Positions 1 through 32,976 of a stretch of DNA of 64,000 nt are shown here, piece after piece (positions within the stretch are counted from its first letter, which is position 1; each line of letters opens with the position of its first letter). A program made the translations under genes and the position numbers. Source of the DNA: Stigmatella erecta (GTDB lineage: Bacteria; Myxococcota; Myxococcia; Myxococcales; Myxococcaceae); the NCBI RefSeq assembly GCF_900111745.1, contig NZ_FOIJ01000001.1, forward strand, positions 248,001-312,000. Reading direction: 5' to 3'. The notes under the pieces are model-generated. The model worked only from the letters and a program-made list of their open reading frames with translations, did no database searches and was not told the origin of the DNA.

Positions 1-1353
1 GCCGATGACGCCCTTGAGGATCTCCACCGTGTCCGGCACCGACGGCTCGTTCACCACCACGGGCGTGAAGCGGCGCTCCAGCGCCGGGTCCGCCGTGATG
101 AACTTCCGGAACTCGTCGTGGGTGGTGGCGCCAATGCAGGGGAACTCCCCGCGCGCCATCGCCGTCTTCAGCTCGTTGGACGCGTCCTGGGGCCCCTCGC
201 CCGTGGAGCCCGCGCCCACCAGCGTGTGGATCTCGTCGATGAAGACCACCACGCGCCCGTCGGCCCGCCGCACCTCGTCCTTCAGCGCGTTCAGCTTCTC
301 CGAGAAGGCGCCGCGCAGCTGCGTGCCCGCCACCAGGCTCGCCATGTCCAGCTCGATGAGCACCTTGGAGGACAGGGTGCCGCGCAGGCTCACCAGCTGC
401 TGGGCCACCCCTTCCACCACCGCCGTCTTGCCCACCCCGGCTTCGCCGAGCAGGCAGGGGTTGTTGGTGCGGCGCTTGCCCAGCACGTCGATGACTTCTT
501 CGATCTCCTTGGCGCGGCCCACCACGGGGTCCAGCTTGCCTTCGTGGGCCAGCAGGCTCAGGTTCCGGCCAATGGAGGACAGCAGGGGAAAGGTCTTGGG
601 ATCCAGCGTCAGCGGGACCGCGCGCGCCGCCGGGAGCGGCGCCGCTGCGGGCGCGGGGCGCGGCGGAGGCACGGGCAGGGGCGCGGCCTTCGCGAGGGGC
701 GCCGCCGGGGCAGGGGAAGGAAGCTCGGTGGCGGCCGGGGCCGCCACCTCGTCATGGCCTTCGTCCGCGTCGATCAGCTCTCGGGGCGAGAGGGCGGGCA
801 GCGAGGGCCGGGAAGGGGCGGCGGGCCGGGGGAGGCTGACCGCGATGGCGGACTGGGGCAGCGGCGAGGGCGGCGCGCCCAGGGGCCGGCCGATGGGGTA
901 CCGCCCTCCGGCGGAGGGAGAGGACATCGGCGCGCGGCTGGCCTGAAGCTTGCGCGGCATGCGGCCGCTCGTGAAATACGAGAAGGCGACGGTGCCCAGC
1001 TTGAGCAAGTCCACCCCCGAGCGGGCCAGCAGATCATTGGCGGCGCAGCGCACCCGCGAGAAGGCGATGAGCAGGTGCAGGCAGTCGGCTTCCCGCGAAT
1101 CGCACTGCTGCGCGATGGCCCGGGCCCGCTCGCAGAGGTTGCGGACGAGGAATTCCTCCTCGGCCGGCGCCTCGGTCATCAGCTCGAGGAGGGTGTCCTC
1201 GCTGATGCCCTTCTCCTTGAGAAGGACCTGCGCGGGGTTGTCCACCGTGTAGAGCGCCAGCAAAACGTGGGCCGAGCTGAGCTTCTGTGTGACGCTCTGG
1301 GCAATGTCCTTCGCCTCGGTGAGAACCTGCGCGAGATCGCTGCTGTCGACCAT
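1..1353 (-). CDS. Clp-family AAA+ ATPase (ClpA/ClpB-like), N-terminal part
   Basis: The gene reads leftward from an ATG at 1353 and is still open at the window edge, so 451 residues are visible. Residues about 5-115 look like the helical Clp N domain that recruits substrates or adaptors. Residues about 125-255 are a proline/alanine-rich linker, longer than in ordinary ClpB. The first AAA+ module then begins, with Walker A GEAGVGKT near residue 303 and a Walker B FIDEIHTLVGAG. The family uses ATP to unfold or disaggregate proteins in the cytoplasm. Only part of the first ATPase module is present, so a ClpB disaggregase cannot be told from a ClpA/ClpC unfoldase or a type VI secretion ClpV. The gene lies divergent to the Yip1-like gene at 1562. 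Confidence 0.85.
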   Translation of the reverse strand, partial: MVDSSDLAQVLTEAKDIAQSVTQKLSSAHVLLALYTVDNPAQVLLKEKGISEDTLLELMTEAPAEEEFLVRNLCERARAIAQQCDSREADCLHLLIAFSRVRCAANDLLARSGVDLLKLGTVAFSYFTSGRMPRKLQASRAPMSSPSAGGRYPIGRPLGAPPSPLPQSAIAVSLPRPAAPSRPSLPALSPRELIDADEGHDEVAAPAATELPSPAPAAPLAKAAPLPVPPPRPAPAAAPLPAARAVPLTLDPKTFPLLSSIGRNLSLLAHEGKLDPVVGRAKEIEEVIDVLGKRRTNNPCLLGEAGVGKTAVVEGVAQQLVSLRGTLSSKVLIELDMASLVAGTQLRGAFSEKLNALKDEVRRADGRVVVFIDEIHTLVGAGSTGEGPQDASNELKTAMARGEFPCIGATTHDEFRKFITADPALERRFTPVVVNEPSVPDTVEILKGVIG

Positions 1354-1413
1354 TGGAACTCCGGCAAGCAGCCGAGCAAATACACCCTTCGGATCGTACG
1401 GGCAAAATTTCCA

Positions 1414-1439
1414 CTACAGGCTGCTACAGGACTGCTGTA
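1414..1439. repeat. CTACAGG direct repeat with inverted CTGTA
   Basis: In the 208-bp gap between the divergent Clp-like and Yip1-like genes, CTACAGG occurs at 1414-1420 and again at 1424-1430, one helical turn apart. An inverted CTGTA follows at 1435-1439. The 10-bp spacing is what an operator would show, but no promoter could be fixed beside it. I see nothing else in this gap. Confidence 0.25.
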
Positions 1440-1561
1440 ACCCCCCTGAATCCTGGGGAATTCGCGCCCCCCTTCGCTGTTCGCTTCCCCAACGCCCAGG
1501 GTTCCAGGCAATACCCCGGGCTTCTCGTCGTAGAGTGACCGACACCTCTCGACCCTCTCTT

Positions 1562-2287
1562 ATGACTTCTCTTGCTCAACCTGCTCGCGTTCTCGTCGAT
1601 CCCATTGACGGAATGGGGGCTGCCATCGAAGCGCGCCGCTGGGGCTGGCCCCTGGTGTTGCTGTGCCTGTGCGTGTCCCTGTCCGGGACCGCGTTCGCCG
1701 TGAAGTGGGATGCGGCCGCGGCGACCGTTCAGCAGTTGCAGATGGGCGGTGAGCTGGGCGGGCTCTCGGAGAGCGAGATCGCCGACAAGATCCAGATCGC
1801 CTCGCGCAAGGGGCTGGTGGGGGGCATCGCCAAGGGCGTCTTCGTCATGCCGGTGATGGTGCTGCTGCTGTCCGCGGTGCTGTGGTTCAGCGCGTGGCTC
1901 TTCGGCGTGAGGGCCCCCTTCGGCCGGATGATGGCCGTGGCGGCCATCGCGATGATGCCCATCGCGCTCTACCACCTGCTCTTCGCCGTGTGTGTCTCCG
2001 CGCAGCACACGATGACCGAGGCGCGCGTGCAGACCCTGCTTCCCACCCACCTGGGGCTGCTGGGGGGCCTGTCCCCGAAGGTGAAGACCCTGCTGGGCGC
2101 GGTGGACTTCTTCAAGCTGTGGAGCGTGGGGCTGCTGGGGCTGGGCTTCTCGTCCGCGACGGGCATGCGCCGGGGACGCGCGCTGCTGCTCATGGGGGTG
2201 CTCTACCTGATGTACTTCGGCGTGTTCTCCGTGGGCCTTCCGGCCATGGGCGGCGGGGCGGGTGCTTCCATGGCGGGTGGCAAGTGA
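1562..2287 (+). CDS. Yip1-family integral membrane protein
   Basis: A 241-residue membrane protein with a short soluble N-terminus and a hydrophobic segment at about residues 25-45. Further hydrophobic segments cover roughly residues 95-125, 130-155 and 180-235. The spacing of the helices and the DFFKLWSV stretch before the last pair fit the YIP1 family, whose bacterial function is not well defined. The ATG at 1562 was chosen because the reading frame upstream of it runs through the intergenic repeat region. Its stop overlaps the GTG of the TolC-like gene by 4 bp, so it leads the exporter operon and may assist assembly of that complex; that role is inference. Confidence 0.7.
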   Translation: MTSLAQPARVLVDPIDGMGAAIEARRWGWPLVLLCLCVSLSGTAFAVKWDAAAATVQQLQMGGELGGLSESEIADKIQIASRKGLVGGIAKGVFVMPVMVLLLSAVLWFSAWLFGVRAPFGRMMAVAAIAMMPIALYHLLFAVCVSAQHTMTEARVQTLLPTHLGLLGGLSPKVKTLLGAVDFFKLWSVGLLGLGFSSATGMRRGRALLLMGVLYLMYFGVFSVGLPAMGGGAGASMAGGK

Positions 2288-3621
2288 ACGCACTGCTCTT
2301 CGCCGCCTGGGTGGCCACGGTGCCCGCGGCCACCTCCATCTCCCTGGACGAGGCGCGGGCCCAGGGGCGCACGAACACCCAGGCGCTGGTGTCGCTGCTG
2401 GAGGCCACGCGCTCGGAGCAGGATGTCCGGCTGGCGCGCTCTCCGCTGCTGCCGCAGCTGTCCCTGAACAGCTCCGCGGGCGGAGCGCTCATTGGCCGAC
2501 AGCGCATCTTCGCCACCGTGTGCAACGAAGACCGTTCGATCTGCGAGCAGCAGGCGGTCGAGACGCCCTCCACGGACCGAGGCAGCTTCGAGCTCTCCTT
2601 GAACCTCACGCAGCTCATCTATGACCGGGTGCGCTGGAAGCAGCTCGAGCAGAGCGGCGCGGTGTTCGAGGCGGCACAGGGCCAGGCCCGCGAGCAGCAG
2701 GACACCTCCGAGCTGGAGGCCATCAACCGCTTCTTCACCCTGTACCGGACGCAGGCCACCCTCCAGGTGCTGGAGGCCACCGTGCGCCGCAGCGAGGAGC
2801 AGCTCGAGCGGGCCCAGGCGCTCTTCGAGGCCGGCCGGGTGAACCGGGGCGAGGAGCTGTCGGCGCGGGTGAACCTCGGCAATGACCGCATCAACCTGCT
2901 GCTGCGCCAGGCGCAGCTCGTCCAGGACCGGGGGCTGCTCGCGGTGTGGCTGGCCCGGCCGGGCTCCGAGCCCCTGGAGGCCCAGGCGCCCGAGAGCCTC
3001 TTGCAGCCGCCCCCGCCGCCGCCGTCCTTCGAGCAGGCGATCGCCGAGGCCCGCCAGCGCCGGCCGCTGCTCGTGGCGCTGCAGCAGCAGGTGCGTGCCG
3101 CCTCGCTGGGCCAGGAGGTGGCCCGGGCGGGCTACTGGCCCCGGCTGCTCGCCCAGGGCTCCTACTCGCGCAGCGGCCCCGAGGCCCGTCCTGTGTTCGC
3201 CACGCCGCGCCTGCAGAACACGCTGTCGGGCGCCGTGGTGCTGCAGTGGGATCTCTTCACCGGGCTGTCGACCGATGCCCAGGTGAACCAGGCCCGGGCG
3301 CAGGTGCGGACCGCGCAGCTGAACCTGGCGCAGACCGAGCGGGAGGTGGAGGCCGAGGTGCAGCGCACCCTTCAGCTCCTGGCGACGCAGATCGCCACCG
3401 CGCAGCTGGCCGCGGAGAACCGGGAGACCGCCGCGCGGAGCCTGTCGCTGGCGGAGGAACGCTTCAAGGCAGGGGCGGGCTCCACGCTGGAGGTGCGCGA
3501 TGCGCAGCTCAAGCTCACGCAGTCGGAGCTGACCTTGCTGGAGAACCGAGTGAACGTGGAGATCGCCCGCTTTGCCATGATGAGGGCCATGGGCACCCTG
3601 AGTCCGGGAGAGTCGAAATGA
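2284..3621 (+). CDS. TolC-family outer membrane channel
   Basis: This 445-residue protein has a short secretion-type N-terminus and then the two long helical repeats of outer membrane efflux proteins. Visible landmarks are the SLDEARAQG start of the first repeat, a QLIYDRVRW segment, a proline run PPPPPP between the halves, and VLQWDLFTGL in the second half. The GTG at 2284 is supported by its 4-bp overlap with the preceding stop. The family forms the outer membrane/periplasm duct for tripartite exporters. The adaptor gene follows with another 4-bp overlap, and the ATPase and permeases come next, so this is the exit duct of the ABC exporter encoded here. Confidence 0.9.
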   Translation: MNALLFAAWVATVPAATSISLDEARAQGRTNTQALVSLLEATRSEQDVRLARSPLLPQLSLNSSAGGALIGRQRIFATVCNEDRSICEQQAVETPSTDRGSFELSLNLTQLIYDRVRWKQLEQSGAVFEAAQGQAREQQDTSELEAINRFFTLYRTQATLQVLEATVRRSEEQLERAQALFEAGRVNRGEELSARVNLGNDRINLLLRQAQLVQDRGLLAVWLARPGSEPLEAQAPESLLQPPPPPPSFEQAIAEARQRRPLLVALQQQVRAASLGQEVARAGYWPRLLAQGSYSRSGPEARPVFATPRLQNTLSGAVVLQWDLFTGLSTDAQVNQARAQVRTAQLNLAQTEREVEAEVQRTLQLLATQIATAQLAAENRETAARSLSLAEERFKAGAGSTLEVRDAQLKLTQSELTLLENRVNVEIARFAMMRAMGTLSPGESK

Positions 3622-4883
3622 AGTGGTGGAAGGGAGTCATCGCGGGTGGTCTGTTCCTGGGCGCGGCGGGCATCACGGTGGCGGGGCTTCGGGACCGGCC
3701 TCCTCCGGCCGTGGAGGTGCAGCTCGCCAAGGTGCACAAAGGGACCATCACCCGCACCATCACGGGCGCGGGCAAGGTGCAGGCGGCCACCACGGTGAAG
3801 ATCTCCTCCAACCTCTCCGGCGAGCTCGTGGAGCTGCTGGTGAAGGATGGGGAGACGGTGAAGAAGGGCCAGGTGCTCGGGCGCATCGACCGCCGGCGGT
3901 TCGAGGCGACGGTGAAGCAGGCCCTGGCGGCCCAGAGCGCCTCCAAGGCCGAGGTGCAGGTCTCCGAGGTGGAGGCCCAGCGCACCCTGGCCGAGCATGC
4001 GCGCGTGAAAGCGCTGGTGGACAAGGGGCTGTCCTCGGGCGCCGAGCTGGAGCAGTCCCAGGCCCGCCTGGACACGGCCAACGCCCAGCTCGCGGCGGCC
4101 CGGCAGCGGCTGGCCCAGGCGTCCGCCGTCTACGAGGAAGCGGCGAGCAACCTGGCCCAGACGACGCTCGTCTCGCCCATCGACGGCAACGTCATCGAGC
4201 TGTCCCGCGAGGTGGGTGAGCGCGTGCGCGGCTCGGACCTGTCCGAGGACATCGTGATGATCATCGCCGCCCTGAACGCCATGGAGGTGAAGATCGAGGT
4301 GGGCGAGCACGAGGTGGTCCACCTGAAGACGGGCCAGCCCTCGGAGGTGGCGCTGGACGCGCTGGATGGGGAGTCCTTCCAGGGCTCGGTGGTGGAGATC
4401 GCCCAGAAGGCGCTCATCAAGAACGAGGGCACGGAGGCGGAGGTGACGACGTTCCCCATCACCGTGGCCCTGGAGACGCGGCCCACGGGCGTGTTGCCGG
4501 GTATGAGCGCCGAGGTGCGCATCGCCGCGGAGACGCACAACGACGCGTTGCTGGTCCCTATTCAGGCGGTGACGGTGCGCTCGGAGAAGATCCTGCCGGA
4601 TTACCAGGCCCCGGTGGAGGGCGGCGGGCTGCAGGCCAAGCGCAAGACGGAGTCGCTGGCCAAGGTCGTCTTCGTGGTGGACGCGGACAACAAGGCCCAG
4701 GTGCGCCGCGTGCGCACGGGGATCGCCTCCGACACGGAGCTGGAGATTCTCGAGGGTCTGCGGGAGGGAGACCGGGTGGTGGAGGGGCCCTACCGCACGC
4801 TCTCCAAGGATCTCAGCCATGGGAACGTCGTCAGCGAGCCCTCGCAGGGCGGCCCTGGGACGAAGGGTGGGCAAAAGTCGTGA
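3618..4883 (+). CDS. Periplasmic adaptor of an ABC exporter (MacA/HlyD-like)
   Basis: A 421-residue membrane-fusion protein. Residues about 5-25 are an inner-membrane anchor. The first half-lipoyl segment follows (about 50-90, with [14 protein letters not shown]), then a helical hairpin rich in Gln, Ala and Glu (about 95-175). The second lipoyl half comes next ([14 protein letters not shown]), then beta-barrel and membrane-proximal regions. These bridge an inner-membrane MacB-type transporter to TolC. The ATG at 3618 overlaps the TolC-like stop, and the ATPase gene starts inside this gene's stop codon. An extra loop near residues 315-345, with lysines, sits before the last domain. Confidence 0.9.
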
Positions 4884-12320: not shown

Positions 12321-13235
12321 GTGAAGCGCTACTTTGGTGTCATCGTCCTCTTCGTGGGTGTGCTGGTCGGCTCGGTGATGTTCTACCGGAAGCTGAGCGC
12401 CCAGACCCACGAGGCGCAGCGCGAGGCGGATCTGGCCCGCATCCAGAAGGAGTACCTGGAGCGGGTGGGCTGGATGCGCAACAACCCCGACGACAAGGCC
12501 TACCGGGAGGAAGTGGCCCCGTTTTTCAAGACGTACTTCGAGCAGATCGACACGCACCTGAACCGCTATGGAGGGAACAAGGAGTTCGACGCGTACCTCC
12601 AGGAAGTCGAGCGGCGGGCGGAGAGCGGCAAGGAGGACCGGGCGGACGACCGGAAGGCCTTCTACCAATACACACGTAAGGTTTTCGACAGATTCCGGGG
12701 CGGGCGCTACCACCCGGAATGGACGGCCACGGACAAGGGGATGCGGCTGGATGTGGTGTCCTCGGACGTGGTGATGGTGCTGGGCAAGCCGCAGGTGCGG
12801 CTGCAGCTGGCGCTGTGGGGCGCGCAGCGCGAGCTGAAGGAGGAGGGCAAGCTGAAGAAGATGGTGACCAGCGCCGCCTTCGACACCGCCTGGCGGCTCA
12901 CCGATGCCAAGGGCAAGCTCGTGGGGGAGATGCGGGGCGCGGACCCGGCGATGAAGATCGACTTCCCGGAGCGCTTCATCGCCGAGTTCCCGCCGCAGAT
13001 GGTGCTGGGCCACTACGACATGGACCTGGTGCCCTCGGAGGTGGCGAAGATGGACATCACCTTCAAGGTGACCTCCCGCGCCTCCACGGGCGGCATCGCC
13101 TCGTCCACGTACACGTGGAAGCTGGATGTGCCCGGCGAGTGGCGGCTGGGCGCGGGCGAGAAGTGGGAAGGGGCCACGGAAGAGGAGCGCCCCGAGGAAG
13201 AGATCGACCCGGCCAAGGCGAGCGCCCAGGAATAG
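12321..13235 (+). CDS. Membrane-anchored protein of unknown function
   Basis: A 304-residue protein with an N-terminal hydrophobic anchor (about residues 5-22, ahead of MFYRKL) and a soluble remainder, probably periplasmic. Residues 30-120 are helical and highly charged. Residues about 130-270 look beta-rich, with WRLTDAKGKLVGEMRG and TYTWKLDVPGEWRLG. The tail is acidic. The GTG at 12321 is supported by AGGAG at 12307-12311, nine bases upstream. I do not recognise a family. It lies divergent to the MetX-like gene and 54 bp ahead of the matrixin gene. Confidence 0.75.
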   Translation: MKRYFGVIVLFVGVLVGSVMFYRKLSAQTHEAQREADLARIQKEYLERVGWMRNNPDDKAYREEVAPFFKTYFEQIDTHLNRYGGNKEFDAYLQEVERRAESGKEDRADDRKAFYQYTRKVFDRFRGGRYHPEWTATDKGMRLDVVSSDVVMVLGKPQVRLQLALWGAQRELKEEGKLKKMVTSAAFDTAWRLTDAKGKLVGEMRGADPAMKIDFPERFIAEFPPQMVLGHYDMDLVPSEVAKMDITFKVTSRASTGGIASSTYTWKLDVPGEWRLGAGEKWEGATEEERPEEEIDPAKASAQE

Positions 13236-13289
13236 GCGCCGCTCACAAAAGGGGTGCCCAATTTCGGCGCTGCGCCGGTCTTGGAGGAA

Positions 13290-14675
13290 ATGACCCCCAT
13301 TTCCTCTTTGAGACTGCCGTGGAGGCGCCTGGTGCTGGCGGCCTTCTTGCTGTTCATGCCCGCCGCCTGGGCCTCGACCCAGATGGCGCTGGATGTGCCC
13401 GCCCTGACGCAGGGGGCGGATTGGGTGGTCCAAGGGCGGGTGTTGCGCACCCAGCCCCGCTGGATTCCCGGGACGGGGCGCCTCGTCACCGCCGTGGAGG
13501 TGTCGGTGGGGCAGGTGCTGAAGGGCACCGTGACGCACCCCTCGGTCGAGGTGCTCCTGCCAGGCGGTACCCTGGGAGGCCTCCGCCAGCACGTCAGCGG
13601 CGCGCCCGCGTTCGCTCCTGGCGAGGAAGTGGTGCTCTTCCTGGCGAAGGGGGGCGAAGGCCCCCACTTGGTGGGACTGTCCCAGGGCAGCTTCCGGGTG
13701 CAGCGCTCCGCCCCGGACGGCCGTGTGCGGGCCGCCTCGATGCTCGCGGCGGATTTGCAGTTGATCGACCCGCTGTCGCTCCAGCCGGTTTCCCCCGCGC
13801 CGAGGACGGTGGACCTCCAGACGCTGCGCGATGAGGTGCTCGCGGTGGCGGCCGCGGAGGCCTCTCCAGCCCCGGCCTTCCAGCCTTTTGAGTCCCCCCC
13901 CGGGGAAGATGGGCCGGTGCCTTTCGTTAGAACCCGTGTGCCCCAGGAACCCGGGGCCGGGGAGGAGCACTGCTTGTGGTGGCCTGGGGGCAGCACGCTC
14001 ACGTTTCATCAGCAGGTCTGCATGCCGGGGGAGCCGGACTGCGCGGCGCGCCAGGCGGCGGTGGCGCTGGCCCTGAATAGCTGGGATGACGCCCTCGTGG
14101 CGTGCGCGAGCCTCCGGCTGGCCGAGGGTCCCGCCACCTCCTCGCGGCAGGTGGGCTACAGCCCCGGGGGACCGAACGAGAACATCCTCGTCCTGCGGGA
14201 CCGGACCTGCACGCAGCAGGAGGAGCCGGACTGCTGGGAGCACCAGGCGGAGACCCTGGCGCTGACGACGATCACCTTCCGCATGCCCGGGGGCGAGGTG
14301 CTCGACGCGGACATCGAGATCGCCCCCTGGGCCTTCGTGCCCCACAGCCCCCTGTCCCTCCAGGCGGTGGTGACGCACGAGCTGGGCCACGCGTTGGGGT
14401 TGGATCACTCGCCCGATTCGCGCTCGACGATGTACGCCACGGTGACGCCCGGCGAGGCCCCCCGGCTCACCCTCGATGAGGGCTCTCAACAGGCCATGTG
14501 TGCCATCTATCCCAGCGGCGCGCCGGCGGTGGACTGCGCCCAGCAAGTCCAGGAGCAGCCGTTGCAGCCCGAGGCGTCCGGCTGCGGCGTGGCCACGGGC
14601 GGAGGGATGCCGGCCCTGGTGGCGGGAGGGGTCCTGCTGGCGCTGAGGCGCCGGCGGAGCCGGAGCACGCCATGA
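13290..14675 (+). CDS. Secreted matrixin-type zinc metalloprotease with MYXO-CTERM-like tail
   Basis: A 461-residue protein with a signal peptide (basic RLPWRR, hydrophobic stretch, cleavage near AWAS). An N-terminal beta domain of about 180 residues comes next, then a metzincin catalytic domain. The zinc site is complete: H363, E364, H367 and H373 in HELGHALGLDH, with STMYA downstream as the Met-turn. The C-terminus, SGCG, then a hydrophobic helix, then RRRR, resembles the MYXO-CTERM sorting tail that anchors myxobacterial proteins at the surface. ATG 13290 has GGAGG only 2 bases upstream; GTG at 13254 is the alternative start. The stop overlaps the next start (ATGA). Confidence 0.83.
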   Translation: MTPISSLRLPWRRLVLAAFLLFMPAAWASTQMALDVPALTQGADWVVQGRVLRTQPRWIPGTGRLVTAVEVSVGQVLKGTVTHPSVEVLLPGGTLGGLRQHVSGAPAFAPGEEVVLFLAKGGEGPHLVGLSQGSFRVQRSAPDGRVRAASMLAADLQLIDPLSLQPVSPAPRTVDLQTLRDEVLAVAAAEASPAPAFQPFESPPGEDGPVPFVRTRVPQEPGAGEEHCLWWPGGSTLTFHQQVCMPGEPDCAARQAAVALALNSWDDALVACASLRLAEGPATSSRQVGYSPGGPNENILVLRDRTCTQQEEPDCWEHQAETLALTTITFRMPGGEVLDADIEIAPWAFVPHSPLSLQAVVTHELGHALGLDHSPDSRSTMYATVTPGEAPRLTLDEGSQQAMCAIYPSGAPAVDCAQQVQEQPLQPEASGCGVATGGGMPALVAGGVLLALRRRRSRSTP

Positions 14676-15370
14676 ACCTTCGGGGCGCACGCGCGGGGTG
14701 GATGGCGCTGGGGTGGGGACTCCTGGCGCAGGGCACGGGGGGCTGTGGGGAGTACGGGCTGGCGGATGAGACGTACCGCGTCGATCCGGTGGCGGTCCTG
14801 GACGGACAGCTGCGAGCCCCCCTGGATGCGGGCCGAGGCCCCACGGCGATGGCCCTGGCGTGGGCCCCGGGGCTGTCTTCCTTGGAGGAACTCTCCGGGG
14901 CCTTGTTGGCCGGAGCCAGCGCGTGTGGCCTGGAGCAGGGGGCCCTCCTGCAGCCCATGCCCCACGAGGAGCACTTCCCGGTGAACTTCGTGCTGCCCCT
15001 GTCCACGGTCCCGCCTCCGGCGGCCCAGCATGCGTTAGAGCCCCGGGGCGGACGGGGGCGGCTGGCCCTCGGGTGGGTCGTCTCCTTCCAGGATGCCAAC
15101 CGCAACGGCCGCTTGGATCTGGCGCAGGAGGAAGGCCCGCCCGAGCGCGTGATGGCCACGTCCCTCGACTCGGGCATGGCCGTGCTCTTCGTGGATGGAG
15201 TGCTGCCCCGCGAGCGCGAGGGCATCTGGCGGCAGTGGCCCGGGACGCTGCCGCCGGGGTTCAGCCTTCTGGAGGGAAGCCTTTCCCACGAAGGGGGGCC
15301 CTCGCTCCGCTTGCTCCCGGCGGACTCCACCTCCTTGACGCTGGAGGGCGCCCGGCGAGTGTGTCCGTGA
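14672..15370 (+). CDS. Putative lipoprotein with a calcium-loop-like motif
   Basis: A 232-residue exported protein. A hydrophobic N-terminus ends in GTGGC, a plausible lipobox with the cysteine near residue 27. The body is mostly beta-like with no recognised domain. One stretch, DANRNGRLDLAQEE, has the D-x-N-x-N-G-x-x-D spacing of calcium-binding EF-hand or dockerin loops. It overlaps the matrixin gene by 4 bp and lies 9 bp ahead of the ECF sigma gene, so it is part of the same coupled unit. Confidence 0.72.
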   Translation: MNLRGARAGWMALGWGLLAQGTGGCGEYGLADETYRVDPVAVLDGQLRAPLDAGRGPTAMALAWAPGLSSLEELSGALLAGASACGLEQGALLQPMPHEEHFPVNFVLPLSTVPPPAAQHALEPRGGRGRLALGWVVSFQDANRNGRLDLAQEEGPPERVMATSLDSGMAVLFVDGVLPREREGIWRQWPGTLPPGFSLLEGSLSHEGGPSLRLLPADSTSLTLEGARRVCP

Positions 15371-15379
15371 GCGAGAGCA

Positions 15380-15880
15380 ATGGACGCGTCGGCGCTCGAG
15401 CAATGGTATGCGTTGTATGGGTACGCCGTGCATCGGCGGTGTGTCCGTTTGCTCCAGTCCGAGGCCGAGGCGGATGATGCCTTGCACGAGGTGTTCCTGC
15501 GCGCCTGGCGCTACGCGCACACCCTTCGGGACGGGCAGCCGCTGCCCTGGCTCTACCGCATCGCGGACCGGCATTGCATGGACCTGCTGAGCCGCCGGGC
15601 GCGGCACGTATCCACCGAGGAGGGGAAGGTGCCTCCTTCGGGAGAGGCCGTGGCCCCGGAGACACCGGAGCAGATGTACCTCTTCGGCCAGGTGCTCGCG
15701 GCCTGCAAGGAGCGCGTGCGGGACACCGCCGTCCTCTACTACCTGGATGAGCTGACGCAGGAAGAGGTGGCCGAGCACCTGGGGTGCTCACGCAAGACGG
15801 TGAAGGAGCGGCTGGCCCAGTTCAAGGAGGTGGCCCTCCGGCTGCTGTCGGGCGGGCGGCCCCAGCGAGGAACGGGATGA
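15380..15880 (+). CDS. ECF-type RNA polymerase sigma factor
   Basis: A 166-residue sigma-70 family protein with only regions 2 and 4. Region 2 carries EADDALHEVFLRAWRYA and the PWLYRIADRHCMDLL segment. Region 4 carries the helix-turn-helix LTQEEVAEHLGCSRKTVKERL. It would direct RNA polymerase to a small regulon in response to an envelope signal. Its stop overlaps the ATG of the anti-sigma-like gene (ATGA), the usual arrangement for a sigma factor and the protein that holds it. The group cannot be assigned by eye. Confidence 0.9.
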   Translation: MDASALEQWYALYGYAVHRRCVRLLQSEAEADDALHEVFLRAWRYAHTLRDGQPLPWLYRIADRHCMDLLSRRARHVSTEEGKVPPSGEAVAPETPEQMYLFGQVLAACKERVRDTAVLYYLDELTQEEVAEHLGCSRKTVKERLAQFKEVALRLLSGGRPQRGTG

Positions 15881-16662
15881 ACCGCTTCGATACCCTGCGT
15901 GCCTTCCGTGAGGCGGGCCACCCTCCGGGGCGAGTGCTCGACGAGCTGGCCTTCGCGTCCGGGGAGATGCCCCGGGCCTCCGGGCCTGCACGCCACGTGA
16001 GCGCCTGTGAGGTCTGCCAGGCACGGATCGCGGCCCTGCGGGAAGAACGTGCCCGGTTCCTGCGGGCCCGTCCCGCGCGGGCTTTCTCCGCCCGGGTGCT
16101 GGAGCAGGCCGCCCGTCCGTCCTGGTGGGAGCGCCCCAGGCTGTGGGCGTTGGCGATGGTGCCTGCGCTGGCGCTCGTTGCCCTGGCACTTCAAGGCGCG
16201 CTCCTCCCCGCAGGGCCCACGTCCATTCGATACAAGGGCGCGGCTCCGGTGCGCTGGGAGGTGCTCGTCAGCCGCGAGGGGCAGCCCGCGGTGGCCTTCC
16301 CGGAGGGCGTGCCTCTGCGCCAGGGGGATGTGTTGCGCTTCCGGGTGGTGCTGCCAGAGCGGGGCTACGTCTTCATCGCCAACCTGGATGAGGCGGGGCA
16401 GTTCACCCGCTATTACCCCGCGGACAGTGCCCACGCGGTGGCCCTGGAGCCGGGCGAGCATGTGCTGCCGGGCAGTGTCGTCCTGGATGATGTGCGGGGC
16501 GAAGAGCGCGTGCTGGTGTTCCTCAGCCCCGCGCCGCTGGAGTCTCAAGAAGTCGAGGCCGCGTTGCGCCAGGCCTTCGAGCGGGCCGGGGGCTTGAGGT
16601 TCGAGGATCCCGGGCTGCTGGTTCCGTCGGCGTCGCATGTCCACGTCAAGGAGGGGCGATGA
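15877..16662 (+). CDS. Anti-sigma-like membrane protein with DUF4384-type domain
   Basis: A 261-residue single-pass membrane protein. The cytoplasmic part has H40, C44 and C47 in an H-x3-C-x2-C motif like the zinc-binding anti-sigma domain. A transmembrane helix lies at about residues 88-110. The outer part resembles DUF4384 (LRQGDVLRFRVVLPERGYVFIANL, then FTRYYP). The layout fits a sensor that holds the ECF factor at the membrane and releases it on an envelope signal. It overlaps the sigma gene by 4 bp and the caspase gene by 4 bp. DUF4384 beside or fused to caspase-like proteins is a recurring arrangement in proteobacteria. Confidence 0.78.
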   Translation: MNRFDTLRAFREAGHPPGRVLDELAFASGEMPRASGPARHVSACEVCQARIAALREERARFLRARPARAFSARVLEQAARPSWWERPRLWALAMVPALALVALALQGALLPAGPTSIRYKGAAPVRWEVLVSREGQPAVAFPEGVPLRQGDVLRFRVVLPERGYVFIANLDEAGQFTRYYPADSAHAVALEPGEHVLPGSVVLDDVRGEERVLVFLSPAPLESQEVEAALRQAFERAGGLRFEDPGLLVPSASHVHVKEGR

Positions 16663-18236
16663 GGGGATGGCTGCTGGCGGTGTTGCTGGGCTCCGGAGTG
16701 GCCTCGGCCCAGGGAGAGGAGGCGCTGCGGGTGGCGGTGGTGGTGGGCAGCAACACCGGCCTGCGGGAAGAGGCGGCCCTCGACTACGCCGAGGCGGATG
16801 CCCGGCGCTTCCATGAGCTGATCCGGGAGGCGGGCCAGGTGGCTCCGGACCACGCCTTCCTGGTGACGGAAGGGGGCGCGGAGGCGGTCCGGCGCGCGCT
16901 GTCCCAGGCCCGGCAGTTGCTGGCCCAGGCGCACCCGCGGGGGCGGGGCACTTTGATCTTCTATGCGTCCGCCCACGCGGATGAGGAGTCCCTGCACCTG
17001 GAGGGGACGAAGCTGCCCCTCGCGGAGCTGACCCAGGTGCTGGAGGACACACCGGCCACGCTGCGGGTGGCCCTCCTCGATGCGTGCCGGACACCGGTGG
17101 CGGCGCGTACCAAGGGAGGCATGCCCCGCGCCGCGGAGGTCCCCGTGCAGTGGGAGGTTCCCGCGCAGGTGGAGGGGATGGTGGTGCTCCGGTCGGCGGG
17201 GGAGGGGGAGCCCGCGCAGGAGTGGTCCGCCCTGCGGGGCTCGCTCTTCACGCACCACCTGCTGGCGGCGCTGCGCGGACTGGCGGATGCGAACGAGGAT
17301 GGGGCCGTCACGCTGGCGGAGCTCTACGCGTACACCTGGCGCCACACGCTGGCCAGCTCCACGCGAGGAGGGGTGGGGCTCCAGCATCCGAGCTTCGACA
17401 TCCGCCTGAGGGGCTGGGGAGAGTGGGTGATGGCGCGCCCGGCGAGGCTCGGGGCCCAGCTGGTGCTCGGAGAGGACGTGGAGGGCAGCCTCTGGGTCAC
17501 GGATCACCAGAACGGGCTGGTGGCGGAGGTGCGCAAGGCCCGGGGCGAGGCCGTGCGGCTGGCGGTGCGGCCGGGACGCTACCAGGTGGTCCGCCCCAAG
17601 GGCGCGTTCGCCGAGGCGGCCGAGGTGCTCCTGGGCTGGAACGCGGAGCGGGTTCTGACCCGGTCCGGCTTCCTGCGCGTGCCGCGGCAGCGCGCCCGTC
17701 TCCGCGGGGGCGCGCCGCTGGTGCTGCGCCCGTGGGCACTGAGCGCCGGGTATGCCCTGTCCTCGGGCTCGGTGCGGGGCCTGGGGCCGGAGCACTTCGC
17801 GGAAGTCGGGCTCCGTCACCGGTGGGCCCGGGCCGTGGCGGGCGTGCGGCTGGGCTTCACGCAGGCCCGGAGGGCTCGGGAAGATCTCCTCCTGGCGCAG
17901 ACCGGGCTTCAGGCTGCCGTGAGCGCGGGCTTCCCGTTTCCCCTGGGGCCCGTGGAGGTGACGGTGGGGGCCGAGGGCCGTGCGACGTGGGTGTCCCAGT
18001 CCTTCACACGGGCAGATACGGAACAGGCCGGTCGGCTCTTCGGCGTCGAAGAGCCCCGGCGCTGGGGGCTCATTCCCGGCGTGGGGCCGTTCGCGTCCGT
18101 GGCATACCTCCTGGCGGAGCCGCTCCTGCTGGGGGTGGAGGGCACCGTGGGCGTCATCCGGACGCCCCGGTACGATGGCAAGGCGGTGGTCCTGCCTTCG
18201 GCCCAGCTGCGCCTGGCGCTGCACTGGGCGCTGTGA
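16659..18236 (+). CDS. Secreted caspase-family (C14) protein with C-terminal beta domain
   Basis: A 525-residue protein with a signal peptide (cleavage near ASA, residue 17). Residues about 23-250 form a caspase-like domain: VAVVVGSNTG at the first strand, catalytic H106 in ASAHADE, and C143 in LLDACRTP. The histidine motif reads AHA where most relatives have GHG. DANEDGAVTLAE is a calcium-loop-like insert, common in this branch. Residues about 330-525 are strand-rich with alternating hydrophobics and end in LRLALHWAL. This looks like an outer-membrane barrel or beta sandwich. AAGGAGGGG precedes the ATG. A secreted caspase-like protease downstream of its own ECF/anti-sigma pair is the notable feature. 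Confidence 0.82.
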   Translation: MRGWLLAVLLGSGVASAQGEEALRVAVVVGSNTGLREEAALDYAEADARRFHELIREAGQVAPDHAFLVTEGGAEAVRRALSQARQLLAQAHPRGRGTLIFYASAHADEESLHLEGTKLPLAELTQVLEDTPATLRVALLDACRTPVAARTKGGMPRAAEVPVQWEVPAQVEGMVVLRSAGEGEPAQEWSALRGSLFTHHLLAALRGLADANEDGAVTLAELYAYTWRHTLASSTRGGVGLQHPSFDIRLRGWGEWVMARPARLGAQLVLGEDVEGSLWVTDHQNGLVAEVRKARGEAVRLAVRPGRYQVVRPKGAFAEAAEVLLGWNAERVLTRSGFLRVPRQRARLRGGAPLVLRPWALSAGYALSSGSVRGLGPEHFAEVGLRHRWARAVAGVRLGFTQARRAREDLLLAQTGLQAAVSAGFPFPLGPVEVTVGAEGRATWVSQSFTRADTEQAGRLFGVEEPRRWGLIPGVGPFASVAYLLAEPLLLGVEGTVGVIRTPRYDGKAVVLPSAQLRLALHWAL

Positions 18237-18292
18237 GCGCTCACTTGAGCCTCTTTACGCCGCTCCCATCGTCCCGCCGTAGCCGTCGGGGG

Positions 18293-20482
18293 TCAGCCTT
18301 CCACGACGGTGAAGTGAGACACCAGCCGGTAGGCACTGAGGGTTCCGCTGTCGTCCAGCAGGTAGAGGCCAAGCCGCGAGTCCACCTGGAGCGCCACGAG
18401 TCCAGCCCCCGCGCGCACCTGGCCCAGCACCTGGCCTCCCTTGGGATCCACGGCGCGCACCTGATCGCCGGCCAGCAGGGTGATGCCGCGCGAGGTGCGG
18501 GCGGGCAGGGCGGTGGGGAGGGCCTCCCCCACGGCGCCCACGCGCCAGCTCAGCTCGCCGGAGGTCTCCACCCGGGCCGCCGCGCCGCTGGCGGCAGTCA
18601 CCAGCACCGCGCCCGGCAGCGCGGCCAGTGCATAGGGGCCCGTGCCCAGGTGCAGCGCGCGCTCCCACAGGAGCTTCCCCTTCGAATCCAGGCAGAGCAG
18701 CACGCCTTCCCGGTCCCGCTCCCCGGCGATGTACAGGCGCGTGCGCGACGTCAGGGGAGCCGAGGGCATGGCCAGGTGGAACTCACGCGTCCACGCCACG
18801 TCTCCGGAGTGCGCATCCGCCATCAGCAGCGCGTGGTGCGAGCCCCGCCCCAGCAGCGCCACGAAGTGCTTGCCCCAGGGCACCGGCGTGCCGTGGAAGG
18901 GCTGTGGCGCCCGCATCCGGTAGCGCACCTGCCCATCCGTGATGTCCAGCCCGTACAGGTAGCCCGAGTCCGTGGCCAGCATCGCCCGGTGTCCCTGCAT
19001 CGCCAGCCAGCTGCGCTGGGTGCGCGGCGGGGCCAGGCGCCAGATTTCCCGGCCGGTCACCTCCGCGTAGGCCAGCACCGTCCGGTCCTCCGCCAGGGTG
19101 ATGAGCAGTCCGTCCTGGCGCACCAATTGCGGACCCAGCGTCAGCCCGTCGTGGTCGTGCAACCACCGGGCACTCGGGCTCGGGCCCATGAAGCCGAGGA
19201 CACGGTCCAGGTCTGCGGTCACCACGTGGCCCTCCACCGTGGCCGCCACCCCGTGGCTCGAGGCGCGCCGCCACAGCATCTCCCCGTCCTTGCGGGACAC
19301 GGCGCAGGCCATCTCCCGCGAGCAGAACACCGCCGCCTGGCGCCCCAGGTGGAGCTGCCCAAACTCCGCGCCCGTCAGCCCCTTCTGGGACCAGCGCTTC
19401 TCGAAGCGCAACCGGCGCAGGCGCCCGGGCACCGGCAGGGGCTTGCCCGCGCCCTGCGCACGCCCCCGTCCCCGGGCCTGGGCCTCTCCCTCGGAAGGAG
19501 GGGCGGCGGCCCCGCGCAGGTGCGACAGCCCCTCCCGGCACCGGTCCGTCAGCTCCACGAGATAGGGGTTCGAGGCCTGGGCGCGCTCACGCTCCGAGAT
19601 GGCCAGCGCCAGCGCCTGCCCCAGGTGGAACATCGCCGCCACCAGCGCCTCCCCCTTCACCTCGAAGGCGGCGCCCGCGCCCAGCTTTCCCCGCCCCGCG
19701 GCCAGCTCCAGCGAGAGCCCCGGCTTCACCCCGGCCAGCTCCAGGGAGAAGCGGGGCTCGCCGAGCTCCACGGCCCGGGACAGCTCCACCGCCTGCCGGG
19801 ACAGCTCCAGCGCGGTGAGGAAAGGGGGGCCGGAGGCCCGCCACGCCGTGGGCTGGCCGGGCAGGGCGAGCCAGACCTCGCCCGCGCACAGCAGGCTGCC
19901 CAGGGCCGCGCCCGGGTCCTTGCCCCGGGAGCGCAGCAGGTCCGCCGCATCCTTCAGTTCGAAGCCGAAGCCGGGCACCTCCGAGGGCTCCACCCGGAGG
20001 GCGAAGGGCTCGGGGCGGGGGGCCTTGTGCACCACCCCGGGGCCGCTGAGCTGGCGCAGGGCCTCCTTCAGCTCCCGGGCCGGGGGGGTGGAGAGCGTGC
20101 CGGGGGCCACCCGGGTGAGGTCCGCCAGGAAGCCCCGGCCGCACTCCCGCGCCGCCTCGGCCAGCTCCTCCAGGTCCACCCGCACGGGCGGCCGCAGCAG
20201 CCGCGCCGGGCGCCCCAGGCTCGCCACGGCCAGGTCCACCTCGGTCCCGGTGCGCCGCAGCACCAGCTCCAGCCCCGCCTCCACCAGGGAGACCTGGGCC
20301 AGCCCCTCTTTTCCGGAGTGCAGGGAGGCCGCCGCGCGCGTCAGGGCGGACACCACCTCCACGAGCGGTTCCTCCACTGCCCCAGAAAGAAGGTTGACGC
20401 CATCCAATTCCAAGGCGATGGAATCCAGCGGCGGAGCCGAGGGTTCGCGCTTCCAGCGCTGTCCAAGACGAAAGCGGGTCAT
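18293..20482 (-). CDS. PQQ-like beta-propeller protein
   Basis: A 729-residue protein with no obvious signal peptide, so probably cytoplasmic. Residues 1-330 are helical/beta mixed with no family I recognise. A basic linker, rich in Gly, Arg and Gln, follows near 335-365. Residues about 370-725 show repeated blades such as AVSRKDGEMLWRR, AEVTGREIWRLAP, LDITDGQVRYRM, ADAHSGDVAWTR and LDSKGKLLWERAL, the PQQ/BamB-like propeller pattern. The ATG at 20482 has GGGAACGG upstream. It is divergent from the HARE-HTH gene with a 100-bp shared control region. Confidence 0.78.
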   Translation of the reverse strand: MTRFRLGQRWKREPSAPPLDSIALELDGVNLLSGAVEEPLVEVVSALTRAAASLHSGKEGLAQVSLVEAGLELVLRRTGTEVDLAVASLGRPARLLRPPVRVDLEELAEAARECGRGFLADLTRVAPGTLSTPPARELKEALRQLSGPGVVHKAPRPEPFALRVEPSEVPGFGFELKDAADLLRSRGKDPGAALGSLLCAGEVWLALPGQPTAWRASGPPFLTALELSRQAVELSRAVELGEPRFSLELAGVKPGLSLELAAGRGKLGAGAAFEVKGEALVAAMFHLGQALALAISERERAQASNPYLVELTDRCREGLSHLRGAAAPPSEGEAQARGRGRAQGAGKPLPVPGRLRRLRFEKRWSQKGLTGAEFGQLHLGRQAAVFCSREMACAVSRKDGEMLWRRASSHGVAATVEGHVVTADLDRVLGFMGPSPSARWLHDHDGLTLGPQLVRQDGLLITLAEDRTVLAYAEVTGREIWRLAPPRTQRSWLAMQGHRAMLATDSGYLYGLDITDGQVRYRMRAPQPFHGTPVPWGKHFVALLGRGSHHALLMADAHSGDVAWTREFHLAMPSAPLTSRTRLYIAGERDREGVLLCLDSKGKLLWERALHLGTGPYALAALPGAVLVTAASGAAARVETSGELSWRVGAVGEALPTALPARTSRGITLLAGDQVRAVDPKGGQVLGQVRAGAGLVALQVDSRLGLYLLDDSGTLSAYRLVSHFTVVEG

Positions 20483-31432: not shown

Positions 31433-32263
31433 CTACGGCACGTGGGAGGCGGGGAGGATGGGCAGCGACGGCGGCGTCTGGGGGTGCGGCAGGTTGCCCA
31501 GGCGCAGCTCCTTCTCCAGCAGCATCTTGCGGATGTCCGCCTCGTCCAGATCGGACACCAGCTCGTAGACGATCTCGCCCTCGCGCCACACGGCCACGTT
31601 GTAGCCGTTGCTCGAGTCCACCTGCACGGAGGGCAGCGCCTGGGCATCCAGGTCCTGCCGCGCATCGTCGAAGACGAAGACGCCGATGCGGCGGCCCTCT
31701 TCGCCCTCCTTGACGGGCTGCGTCTCGTAGCTGATGTAGGCGGCCGGCCGGTCCTTGATGTTGGAGATGCGCGCGCCGGACAGGCTCACGTTGCGCAGGC
31801 GGGGCACGGGGACCGGGTGATCCAGCTTCCCGTCGAACCAGGCCTCCACGTGCTCGGGGGCCACGTTGGCGATCTCGAAGGGAAGCTGCTTGGAGTGGCG
31901 CCGGACCGCCTCTTCCACGAACCGCTGGCGCTCCTCGGGGCGGGTCGTCACCCAGGCGCCGCCCACCGCCGCCACCACCAGCGCCGCTGCTCCCATGCGC
32001 AGCCACTGGACCTGCTGGGCGCGGCGGTGCTCCTGTTTCATTCCCAGCTGAATTCCAGCGCGGAGCGACGCGGGGGCCCGGCGCGACTGAACCGAGAGGT
32101 TCGCCGCGCGCCGGAGGGCCTGCCGGATGGCCGTCTCCTCCTCGACCCGCCCGGTACAGGCCTCGCACTCGGCGAGGTGGGTCTCGACTTCAATCCGCTC
32201 CTCGGGCTGAAACTCGCCGTCGAGGTACGGGTAGAGCAACCGATCGAGTTCCTGGCAGGTCAT
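31433..32263 (-). CDS. Zinc-motif anti-sigma factor
   Basis: A 276-residue single-pass membrane protein. The N-terminus carries the zinc anti-sigma motif: C3, H29, C33 and C36 (HLAECEAC). A membrane helix lies at about residues 87-107. The outer part, about 160 residues, is beta-rich with a conserved YNVAVWREGEIVYELVSDL. It lies 71 bp after the rpoE1-like sigma gene, on the same strand, and would keep that factor at the membrane. The gene between rpoE1 and frzS in M. xanthus occupies the same place. Confidence 0.85.
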   Translation of the reverse strand: MTCQELDRLLYPYLDGEFQPEERIEVETHLAECEACTGRVEEETAIRQALRRAANLSVQSRRAPASLRAGIQLGMKQEHRRAQQVQWLRMGAAALVVAAVGGAWVTTRPEERQRFVEEAVRRHSKQLPFEIANVAPEHVEAWFDGKLDHPVPVPRLRNVSLSGARISNIKDRPAAYISYETQPVKEGEEGRRIGVFVFDDARQDLDAQALPSVQVDSSNGYNVAVWREGEIVYELVSDLDEADIRKMLLEKELRLGNLPHPQTPPSLPILPASHVP

Positions 32264-32334
32264 GAGCGCTCTGGGAGAGGGCCACCGGGTGACGGGCCCT
32301 GGGCAAAAATGCCTTTGGGCCCGTCAACCTCCTA

Positions 32335-32976
32335 CTACCCCGTCTTCTTCCTGTGACGGTACTCTTCGAGGTCCGCGGGGGCTTTCACGGGCTCTCCGTC
32401 ATGACGGAACACCCCCTGGCCCTCGGCGTACTCGCGCAGCGTCTTCTGCAAGAGCTTGCGGCCCCGGAACAGGCGGCTCATCACCGTGCCCACGGGGCAC
32501 TCAAGGATCTCGGCGATCTCCTTGTAGGAGAACTCCTGCAAGTCCGCGAGGATGACCACCAGCCGGAAGTCGATGGGCAGCGAGTCGATGGCCCGGAGCA
32601 CATCATCCGACAGCAGCCGGTCGAAGAAGTATTGCTCGGGGTTGGCGGCGAAGTCCGTCGCGTCCCGGCTGACGAAGCGCTCGTGGACTGCCTCGCGCTC
32701 CACCCCTTCCACCACCGTGCGCTCCTTCACCTTGCGCCGGTAGCGGTTGATGAAGGTGTTGGTGAGGATCTTGAAGAGCCAGGCCTTGATGTTGGTGCCA
32801 CGCTCGAACTTGTCGAAAAAGCGGTAGGCCCGCATGCAGGTGTCCTGCACCAGGTCTTCCGCGTCGCGCTCGTTCTTGGTCAGCCGCAGGGCGGCCGAGT
32901 AGAGCGGGTCGAGGTGGGCCAGGGCCAGCTCTTCGAATTCCTGTTTCGTCCGATTCGGTTGCCTGAAGTCCAACAT
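32335..32976 (-). CDS. rpoE1: ECF sigma factor, RpoE1-like
   Basis: A 213-residue ECF sigma factor with region 2 ([22 protein letters not shown], split here as the [14 protein letters not shown] part) and region 4 helix-turn-helix ([21 protein letters not shown]). An extra 30 residues sit at the N-terminus, and a short C-terminal tail follows region 4. In M. xanthus an ECF gene, rpoE1, lies between aldA and frzS and affects motility behaviour; this gene holds the same place. AGGAAGG precedes the ATG. The promoter-like element and palindrome upstream (33013-33067) suggest controlled or autoregulated expression. Confidence 0.85.

Follow-up and report, generated by a model that had tools for sequence, protein, structure and literature searches.

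A conserved gene block of Stigmatella erecta links an ECF sigma switch to a caspase-like protease with a predicted outer-membrane barrel, and its anti-sigma factor may be the substrate

In Myxococcus xanthus, four of five metacaspases are encoded in an operon with a sigma-70 gene, and sigma-caspase operons also occur in Anaeromyxobacter, Haliangium, Sorangium, Ralstonia and Fibrobacter, according to the accessible part of a 2012 report (PMC3501461). The available portions of three further papers describe related arrangements: genes for extracytoplasmic function (ECF) sigma factors are predicted, from gene neighbourhoods, in EACC2/caspase neighbourhoods (PMC8195603); ECF54 genes, discussed under control without an anti-sigma factor, have CHAT, subtilase or carboxypeptidase neighbours (PMC8999054); and in the CASP system the caspase-like (CHAT) protein Csx29 cleaves the inhibitor of an ECF-like sigma factor (PMC10028731, 2022). 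We found no mechanism for sigma-caspase operons in the titles and abstract openings that a literature search returned, most subscription journals lying outside its coverage. Here we describe a five-gene block in a 64,000-nucleotide stretch of Stigmatella erecta (contig NZ_FOIJ01000001.1, positions 248,001 to 312,000; 'the window'). An earlier note on this DNA had held that a sigma-controlled two-protease surface system would be new, although the coupling of sigma factor and caspase as such is not, given the 2012 operons, and had suggested roles in predation, kin interaction or self-cleavage, for which we have no evidence either way. We propose, with a confidence just short of even, that the block is a self-contained, self-amplifying surface-signalling unit whose caspase cuts its own anti-sigma factor. 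The block and the element in front of it are as follows.

13253–13280, + strand: promoter-like element GGTGCC-N3-TTT-...-CGGTC upstream of the matrixin gene, a probable ECF promoter
13290–14675, + strand: MAT, a zinc protease of the matrixin type that has a signal peptide, an additional N-terminal domain and a MYXO-CTERM-like tail
14672–15370, + strand: LIP, a lipoprotein with a single beta-rich domain carrying a DxNxNGxLD loop; overlaps the MAT gene by 4 bases
15380–15880, + strand: ECF sigma factor of 166 aa, sigma2 and sigma4 only, after a 9-base gap
15877–16662, + strand: ASF, an anti-sigma factor with C-terminal DUF4384; 4-base overlap with the ECF gene
16659–18236, + strand: CAS, a caspase-like protease; 4-base overlap with the ASF gene

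The coordinates confirm the tight packing claimed in the earlier note, with successive 4-base overlaps on one strand and a single 9-base gap ahead of the ECF gene. Nor does anything appear to divide the matrixin pair from the sigma-caspase genes: a simple scan of 13000–18500 found neither a sigma70-like promoter nor a terminator-like site. Four of the five proteins, all but LIP, match Pfam families over the curated cut-offs: MAT matches PF00413 (Peptidase_M10, 40.5 bits), the sigma factor PF04542, PF04545 and PF08281 (with TIGR02937 at 72.4 bits), ASF PF14326 (DUF4384, 29.2 bits) and CAS PF00656 (Peptidase_C14, 29.5 bits), the last being the sole Pfam match of CAS at E up to 0.1. Compared with the nearest relative, the ratio of nonsynonymous to synonymous substitution rates (dN/dS) of the five genes is 0.13–0.39.

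ASF has the layout of a zinc-associated anti-sigma factor, with an N-terminal H40-x3-C44-x2-C47, one transmembrane helix at about residues 92–110, and a gene that overlaps the ECF gene. No curated anti-sigma model matches it over cut-off; only TIGR02451 is detected, at 18.6 bits (E 0.0013) against a cut-off of 124.5. We compared ASF within a set of 44 non-redundant anti-sigma sequences that share under 70% identity and match the profile at E up to 1e-7. Conservation in this set is highest at Gly121 (100%) and Lys120 (95%), whereas the zinc ligands reach 75–80% and the best DUF4384 columns 82–93%. This pair lies between the transmembrane helix and DUF4384, just outside the membrane helix.

16234–16239, + strand: codons of Lys120-Gly121, the most conserved residues of ASF and a candidate site-1 cleavage point

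After the helix, a basic residue followed by glycine ([KR]G) is present in all 44 sequences, where composition alone predicts 14.1; it is KG in 42 (3.5 expected) and RG in two. As a control, the DUF4384 proteins of the phylum with the highest scores were divided by whether an ECF gene lies within 1.5 kb (29 with, 9 without). KG was found in 29/29 ECF-linked proteins and in only one of the nine others, in that case elsewhere in the linker. In six proteins encoded downstream of ECF genes but outside the DUF4384 set, [KR]G never followed the most hydrophobic segment, although only about three of them look like membrane anti-sigma factors, too few to weigh.

CAS comprises a signal peptide, a caspase domain (about residues 19–260), a beta-sandwich (about 245–345) and a predicted eight-stranded barrel (359–524). 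An AlphaFold2 model built from 16 sequences (mean pLDDT 81.4) contains the caspase domain, the beta-sandwich and eight long C-terminal strands, and its best Foldseek matches in the PDB are the OmpA, NspA and OmpX barrels together with MALT1. For the predicted barrel, TMt is 0.68 with the OmpA transmembrane domain, 0.68 with OmpX and 0.65 with NspA. Residues 19–260 of the same predicted model align to caspase-7, caspase-3, MALT1 and metacaspase-4 with a VIA-align Z of about 21, MALT1 being closest by identity (18%) among the matches listed.

16974–16976, + strand: His106, probable catalytic histidine of CAS, conserved in every sequence of alignments A1 (13) and A2 (16)
17085–17087, + strand: Cys143, probable catalytic cysteine of CAS, invariant in A1 and A2
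17286–17321, + strand: EF-hand-like loop DANEDGAVTLAE of CAS, present in most relatives compared
17733–18230, + strand: predicted outer-membrane barrel of CAS, eight long strands in the model, OmpA TMt 0.68

The family domain, the predicted caspase fold and the His-Cys dyad together place CAS in family C14. Its signal peptide agrees with the earlier description of the protein as secreted, but that description is incomplete, since the C-terminal third is a predicted outer-membrane barrel by which CAS is probably anchored. The layout varies among relatives; one paralogue in the same genome (L115; L and G numbers denote our loci and genomes) matches CAS over its N-terminal part only. Two acidic residues bear on specificity: a weak alignment with metacaspase-4 (E 0.09) puts the invariant Asp47 opposite the 'ND' of metacaspases, and Asp141 precedes Cys143. 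We take these to be the acids through which the S1 pocket of MALT1 and of metacaspases selects Lys/Arg, and on that assumption, together with the weak alignment, we expect CAS to have a paracaspase/metacaspase-like specificity and to cut after a basic residue. The loop after the catalytic cysteine is a place where caspases self-process; in CAS it is modelled with low confidence (pLDDT under 50) and contains a Lys-Gly, K152-G153, that is invariant in A1 and A2. The calcium-loop-like motifs pointed out previously are present in both LIP (DANRNGRLD) and CAS (DANEDGAVTLAE). We rejected them as a special link between the two proteins, because the caspase loop is generic: Nitrospira, Elusimicrobia and Lindowbacteria have caspases that share it, and no sigma/anti-sigma pair of this kind is seen at the loci fetched for them.

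We searched 96 genomes of the family for MAT, LIP, ASF and CAS, extending the caspase search to 145 genomes of the order; the sigma gene was located by gene calling at the fetched loci. Strong orthologues of the four proteins fall in one set of 7/96 genomes, and gene calling at these loci (the window and L071–L076) gave an identical order of all five genes in every case. The five-gene order sought in other myxobacteria was thus recovered in three genera (2/7, 3/6 and 2/27 of the genomes sampled per genus), where the sequence flanking the block differs from genus to genus. We conclude that the block is conserved to a greater extent than chance would allow. An eighth genome (G046) holds only a mosaic remnant close to a contig end: at L077, positions 18321–19447, one frame runs from the beginning of the matrixin through a short piece of the sigma factor to the caspase C terminus, behind an intact promoter-like element. 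Either the block has decayed here or the assembly has collapsed near the contig end.

A wider module emerges from 13 four-gene loci (L078–L090), picked because matches to the window proteins clustered there. ECF, anti-sigma and caspase genes are contiguous in that order in all 13, and a lipoprotein related to LIP through its N-terminal domain adjoins the caspase gene or lies one gene beyond in 12 of them by phmmer and in all 13 by profile; none has a matrixin. Since this lipoprotein family is found next to the caspase even where relatives have no matrixin, the matrixin counts as a lineage-specific addition. As judged from these sequences, the recurring partnership is that of sigma factor, anti-sigma factor, caspase and, at many loci, a lipoprotein, which the matrixin joined in one lineage only. 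Within the S. erecta genome, all five matches to CAS, four of them also PF00656 matches, adjoin an ECF/anti-sigma pair; four of these loci are single operons (the window and L114–L116) and one, L233, is divergent, with the ECF and anti-sigma genes on one strand and the caspase gene on the other (positions 805–3625). Among 20 loci taken from the anti-sigma match list, an ECF gene adjoins in 20 and a caspase gene lies within 1.9 kb in 19, the contig ending at the remaining one. One caspase gene, at L103, has no sigma/anti-sigma pair within its 9.3 kb contig. At L162 (3491–5371, genome G043), a single 626-aa frame combines an ECF sigma factor with a caspase domain; no transmembrane-like segment was found in it, and it is possibly a gene fusion.

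The promoter-like element has the general form GGT(G/T)CC-N3-TTT-N9..14-GGTC and lies before the matrixin gene in five-gene loci and before sigma or separate lipoprotein genes in many four-gene loci. It is found upstream of the matrixin in all seven five-gene loci and in the remnant L077, with the strict pattern in 7/8 and one base off in L075. The 9.2 Mb S. erecta genome has one match to the strict pattern, that in the window, and likewise one match to a fixed-spacing pattern with up to 3 mismatches, for which the control gave 0. Ten first-order Markov resamples of the loci yielded no matches, as against 18 in the real sequences. We also trained a two-box score matrix on nine sites and applied it to the 250-base upstream regions of 832 genes from 57 loci, several of which are one place fetched twice; the counts include the training sites. 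Of 34 scores >20, 33 fall before module genes for a matrixin, sigma factor or lipoprotein, counting the remnant as part of the module; the other falls before the gene divergent from the L102 sigma gene. Non-training sites above this score include the sigma genes of L079, L083, L086, L087 and L088 and the lipoprotein genes of L082, L084, L085 and L088. The 13 four-gene loci have a site before the sigma gene in nine cases and before the sigma or lipoprotein gene in 11, with none in L089 or L090.

Given that one element precedes the matrixin, and the sigma or lipoprotein genes in 11/13 relatives, it is very probable that the five genes form one co-regulated, autoregulated unit. The co-regulation inferred in the earlier note is thus well supported, both by this element and by a block that is shared elsewhere and in which the scan found no separating signal. 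A wide regulon is not supported in the S. erecta genome, which has a single site. In another genome (G042), the element lies 34–54 bases before two unlinked lipoprotein genes (L127, 724–1467; L143, 83–1447), which are possible trans targets of the sigma factor. The other S. erecta operons score low (L114 none, L115 -0.5, L116 4.0), which suggests that each switch has a specificity of its own. Nine bases separate the element from the ATG at 13290 in the window, compared with about 40 bases in other genera, and the true start of MAT may therefore lie further in; TTG 13308 and GTG 13332 are the alternatives.

These observations can be assembled into the following scheme. The zinc-type domain of ASF, on the cytoplasmic side, would keep the ECF factor at the inner membrane, and the DUF4384 half of ASF would lie in the periplasm. 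CAS would be exported, and its C-terminal barrel would fix it in the outer membrane so that the caspase domain faces the periplasm. A signal at the outer membrane, perhaps conveyed by calcium or by the lipoprotein, would activate CAS, which would then cut ASF after Lys120, beside the membrane; routine intramembrane proteolysis would release the sigma factor. The freed factor would transcribe the operon from the conserved promoter before the matrixin gene, giving more of the switch, more CAS, and in addition LIP and MAT as surface products, with the matrixin as a lineage-specific output. A basic residue before glycine fits the preference of paracaspases and metacaspases, and for this reason we propose that CAS cleaves its own anti-sigma factor, a step that we hold tentatively and consider somewhat less than evenly probable. 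The earlier note had seen no substrate, and ASF is now a plausible candidate. Gene order, domains, catalytic residues, the element and the conservation of Lys-Gly are read from sequence, and the caspase fold and the barrel are predicted from models; the topology, the signal, the cleavage step and the role of MAT are inferences. More speculatively still, myxobacteria may carry parallel switches of this kind, in each of which an outer-membrane-anchored MALT1-like caspase acts as the site-1 protease of its own anti-sigma factor, at a nearly invariant Lys-Gly close to the inner membrane, and each switch would drive surface products of its own.

Several points weigh against this scheme. When RG is counted along with KG, the control becomes less sharp (29/29 ECF-linked proteins against 4/9 others), and of the nine controls only L193 has a clear transmembrane helix and L194 a borderline one, so that Lys-Gly may have a structural role. 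The L233 anti-sigma factor, from the S. erecta genome but outside the set of 44, has a transmembrane helix and a neighbouring caspase and yet lacks [KR]G in its linker; this slightly lowered our confidence in cleavage and in the scheme as a whole. The L233 caspase is distant from CAS (E 1e-12). Conversely, the ECF/DUF4384 anti-sigma pairs of L222 and L223 (close relatives) and L224 keep Lys-Gly with no caspase gene within about 6 kb, so that the protease using the site may be a different one, or a caspase acting in trans. Nor can the Lys-Gly of the caspase loop be taken as proof of coevolution with the anti-sigma factor, an argument that we rejected: it also occurs in Nitrospira (L107) and Lindowbacteria (L106) caspases outside such operons, with Gln-Gly in three from Elusimicrobia, and is therefore older than the sigma-caspase pairing. 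Reversed as a control, the strict promoter pattern still has 2 matches in the S. erecta genome, so that uniqueness of the element is weak evidence on its own. Before the sigma genes of L089, L093, L102, L104 and L125 the score is under 3 or there is no site. An outer-membrane-anchored CAS would have to bridge the periplasm to reach a site near the inner membrane, and both its activity and its interaction with ASF are predictions.

The exceptions L222–L224 and L233 would be expected if CAS were only an output, that is, an effector or a maturation protease acting on surface or envelope proteins, with another site-1 protease reading Lys-Gly and releasing the sigma factor, in the manner of DegS-type proteases elsewhere; CAS also shares its promoter with the other outputs, MAT and LIP. 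We regard this as a serious, if less than even, possibility. However, the linkage of both ECF and caspase genes to 19/20 picked anti-sigma factors over wide divergence, like the ECF/anti-sigma pair beside all five S. erecta caspase matches, is more than would be expected for a mere target, and the basic-Gly site is of the type that the caspase is predicted to prefer. It is improbable that no proteolysis is involved and that the sigma factor is released by a redox- or metal-responsive, ChrR-like zinc-type domain, or by a ligand of DUF4384, with Lys-Gly in a structural role. Such a mechanism would account for the H-x3-C-x2-C of ASF and many relatives and for the weak, below-cut-off TIGR02451 match, but the zinc ligands vary more than Lys-Gly does and are missing from several members, including the S. 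erecta paralogues at L114 and L115, and the membrane helix and outer domain of ASF point to a signal from outside. Finally, the occurrence of the matrixin in this setting in so few family genomes (7/96) might indicate that MAT and LIP are upstream passengers outside the sigma factor's programme. This we consider very unlikely, since one promoter-like element precedes the matrixin in seven loci and the sigma or separate lipoprotein genes in relatives, and the 250 bases upstream of the window sigma gene contain no copy.

MAT contains the M10 motif and Met-turn (HELGHALGLDH...M), and HExGHxxGxxH is present in 7/7 orthologues. The C-terminal cysteine motif, transmembrane helix and arginine cluster are likewise visible in all seven, although no NCBIfam MYXO-CTERM model matches MAT at E up to 0.1. 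The protease half of MAT resembles the myxosortase-dependent metalloproteases MXAN_2677/MXAN_2678, but MAT scores 176.8 bits against their equivalog model NF041905, under the cut-off of 250 (the L091 orthologue reaches 197.5 bits), and in the window the N-terminal domain is fused to the protease. At L119 of the same genome (7583–10001), a separate gene for the N-terminal domain is followed by two genes of the MXAN_2677/2678 family (374.2 and 355 bits). LIP has a TGGC lipobox, which, like its DANRNGRLD loop, is found in 7/7 orthologues, and is homologous to the N-terminal domain of larger lipoproteins adjoining related caspases. It has no family match in Pfam, NCBIfam or PHROG at E up to 0.1. 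Foldseek found nothing similar to its AlphaFold2 model (mean pLDDT 79.5) at E up to 0.001, and the highest VIA-align Z was only 4.3; we therefore read no function from the model. Searches with single proteins against PHROG, defence systems and solved structures gave nothing useful. Larger lipoprotein-like genes, encoding 915–927 aa, lie directly upstream of the sigma gene at four loci of the four-gene type, L089 (4699–7446), L090 (10244–13009), L098 (1474–4245) and L099 (391–3174). The L099 protein carries bacterial Ig-like repeats (Big_2); the element precedes the L098 gene (score 16.9) and, more weakly, the L099 gene (11.2). Elsewhere in the window, on the - strand (31433–32976), what by eye is a second sigma-factor-like gene (32335–32976) is followed by one that seems to encode a cysteine-rich anti-sigma-like protein (31433–32263).

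With candidates for the cleavage site and the promoter, and with a predicted anchor in the outer membrane, the function of this caspase becomes directly testable. If the scheme is correct, a caspase would join the proteases that open ECF switches, such bacterial caspases would transduce signals from the cell surface to transcription, and the caspase homologues of multicellular bacteria would gain a role other than death. In FecI-FecR-FecA, a sigma factor, an anti-sigma factor and an outer-membrane protein cooperate, and a signal at the outer membrane reaches an anti-sigma factor in the inner membrane. The partner in the window differs from FecA in being a predicted eight-stranded barrel with a caspase domain rather than a TonB-dependent receptor. 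Relative to the sigma-caspase operons reported in 2012, the new elements are the predicted caspase barrel, the link to a lipoprotein family, the matrixin as a lineage-specific addition, the shared promoter-like element and the conservation of the anti-sigma Lys-Gly; the accessible text of that report mentions none of these, nor DUF4384, which has 0 occurrences in it (PMC3501461). The EACC2 (PMC8195603) and ECF54 (PMC8999054) neighbourhoods, as described in the available parts of those papers, resemble the window in having an ECF gene near caspase-type genes, and differ from it in their partner proteins. Finally, whereas the window protease is exported and is a caspase domain with a predicted barrel rather than a TPR-CHAT protein, CASP (Csx29, Csx30 and CASP-sigma), as set out in the accessible text, likewise directs a caspase-like protease at a sigma factor inhibitor and so provides a precedent for the cleavage proposed here (PMC10028731).

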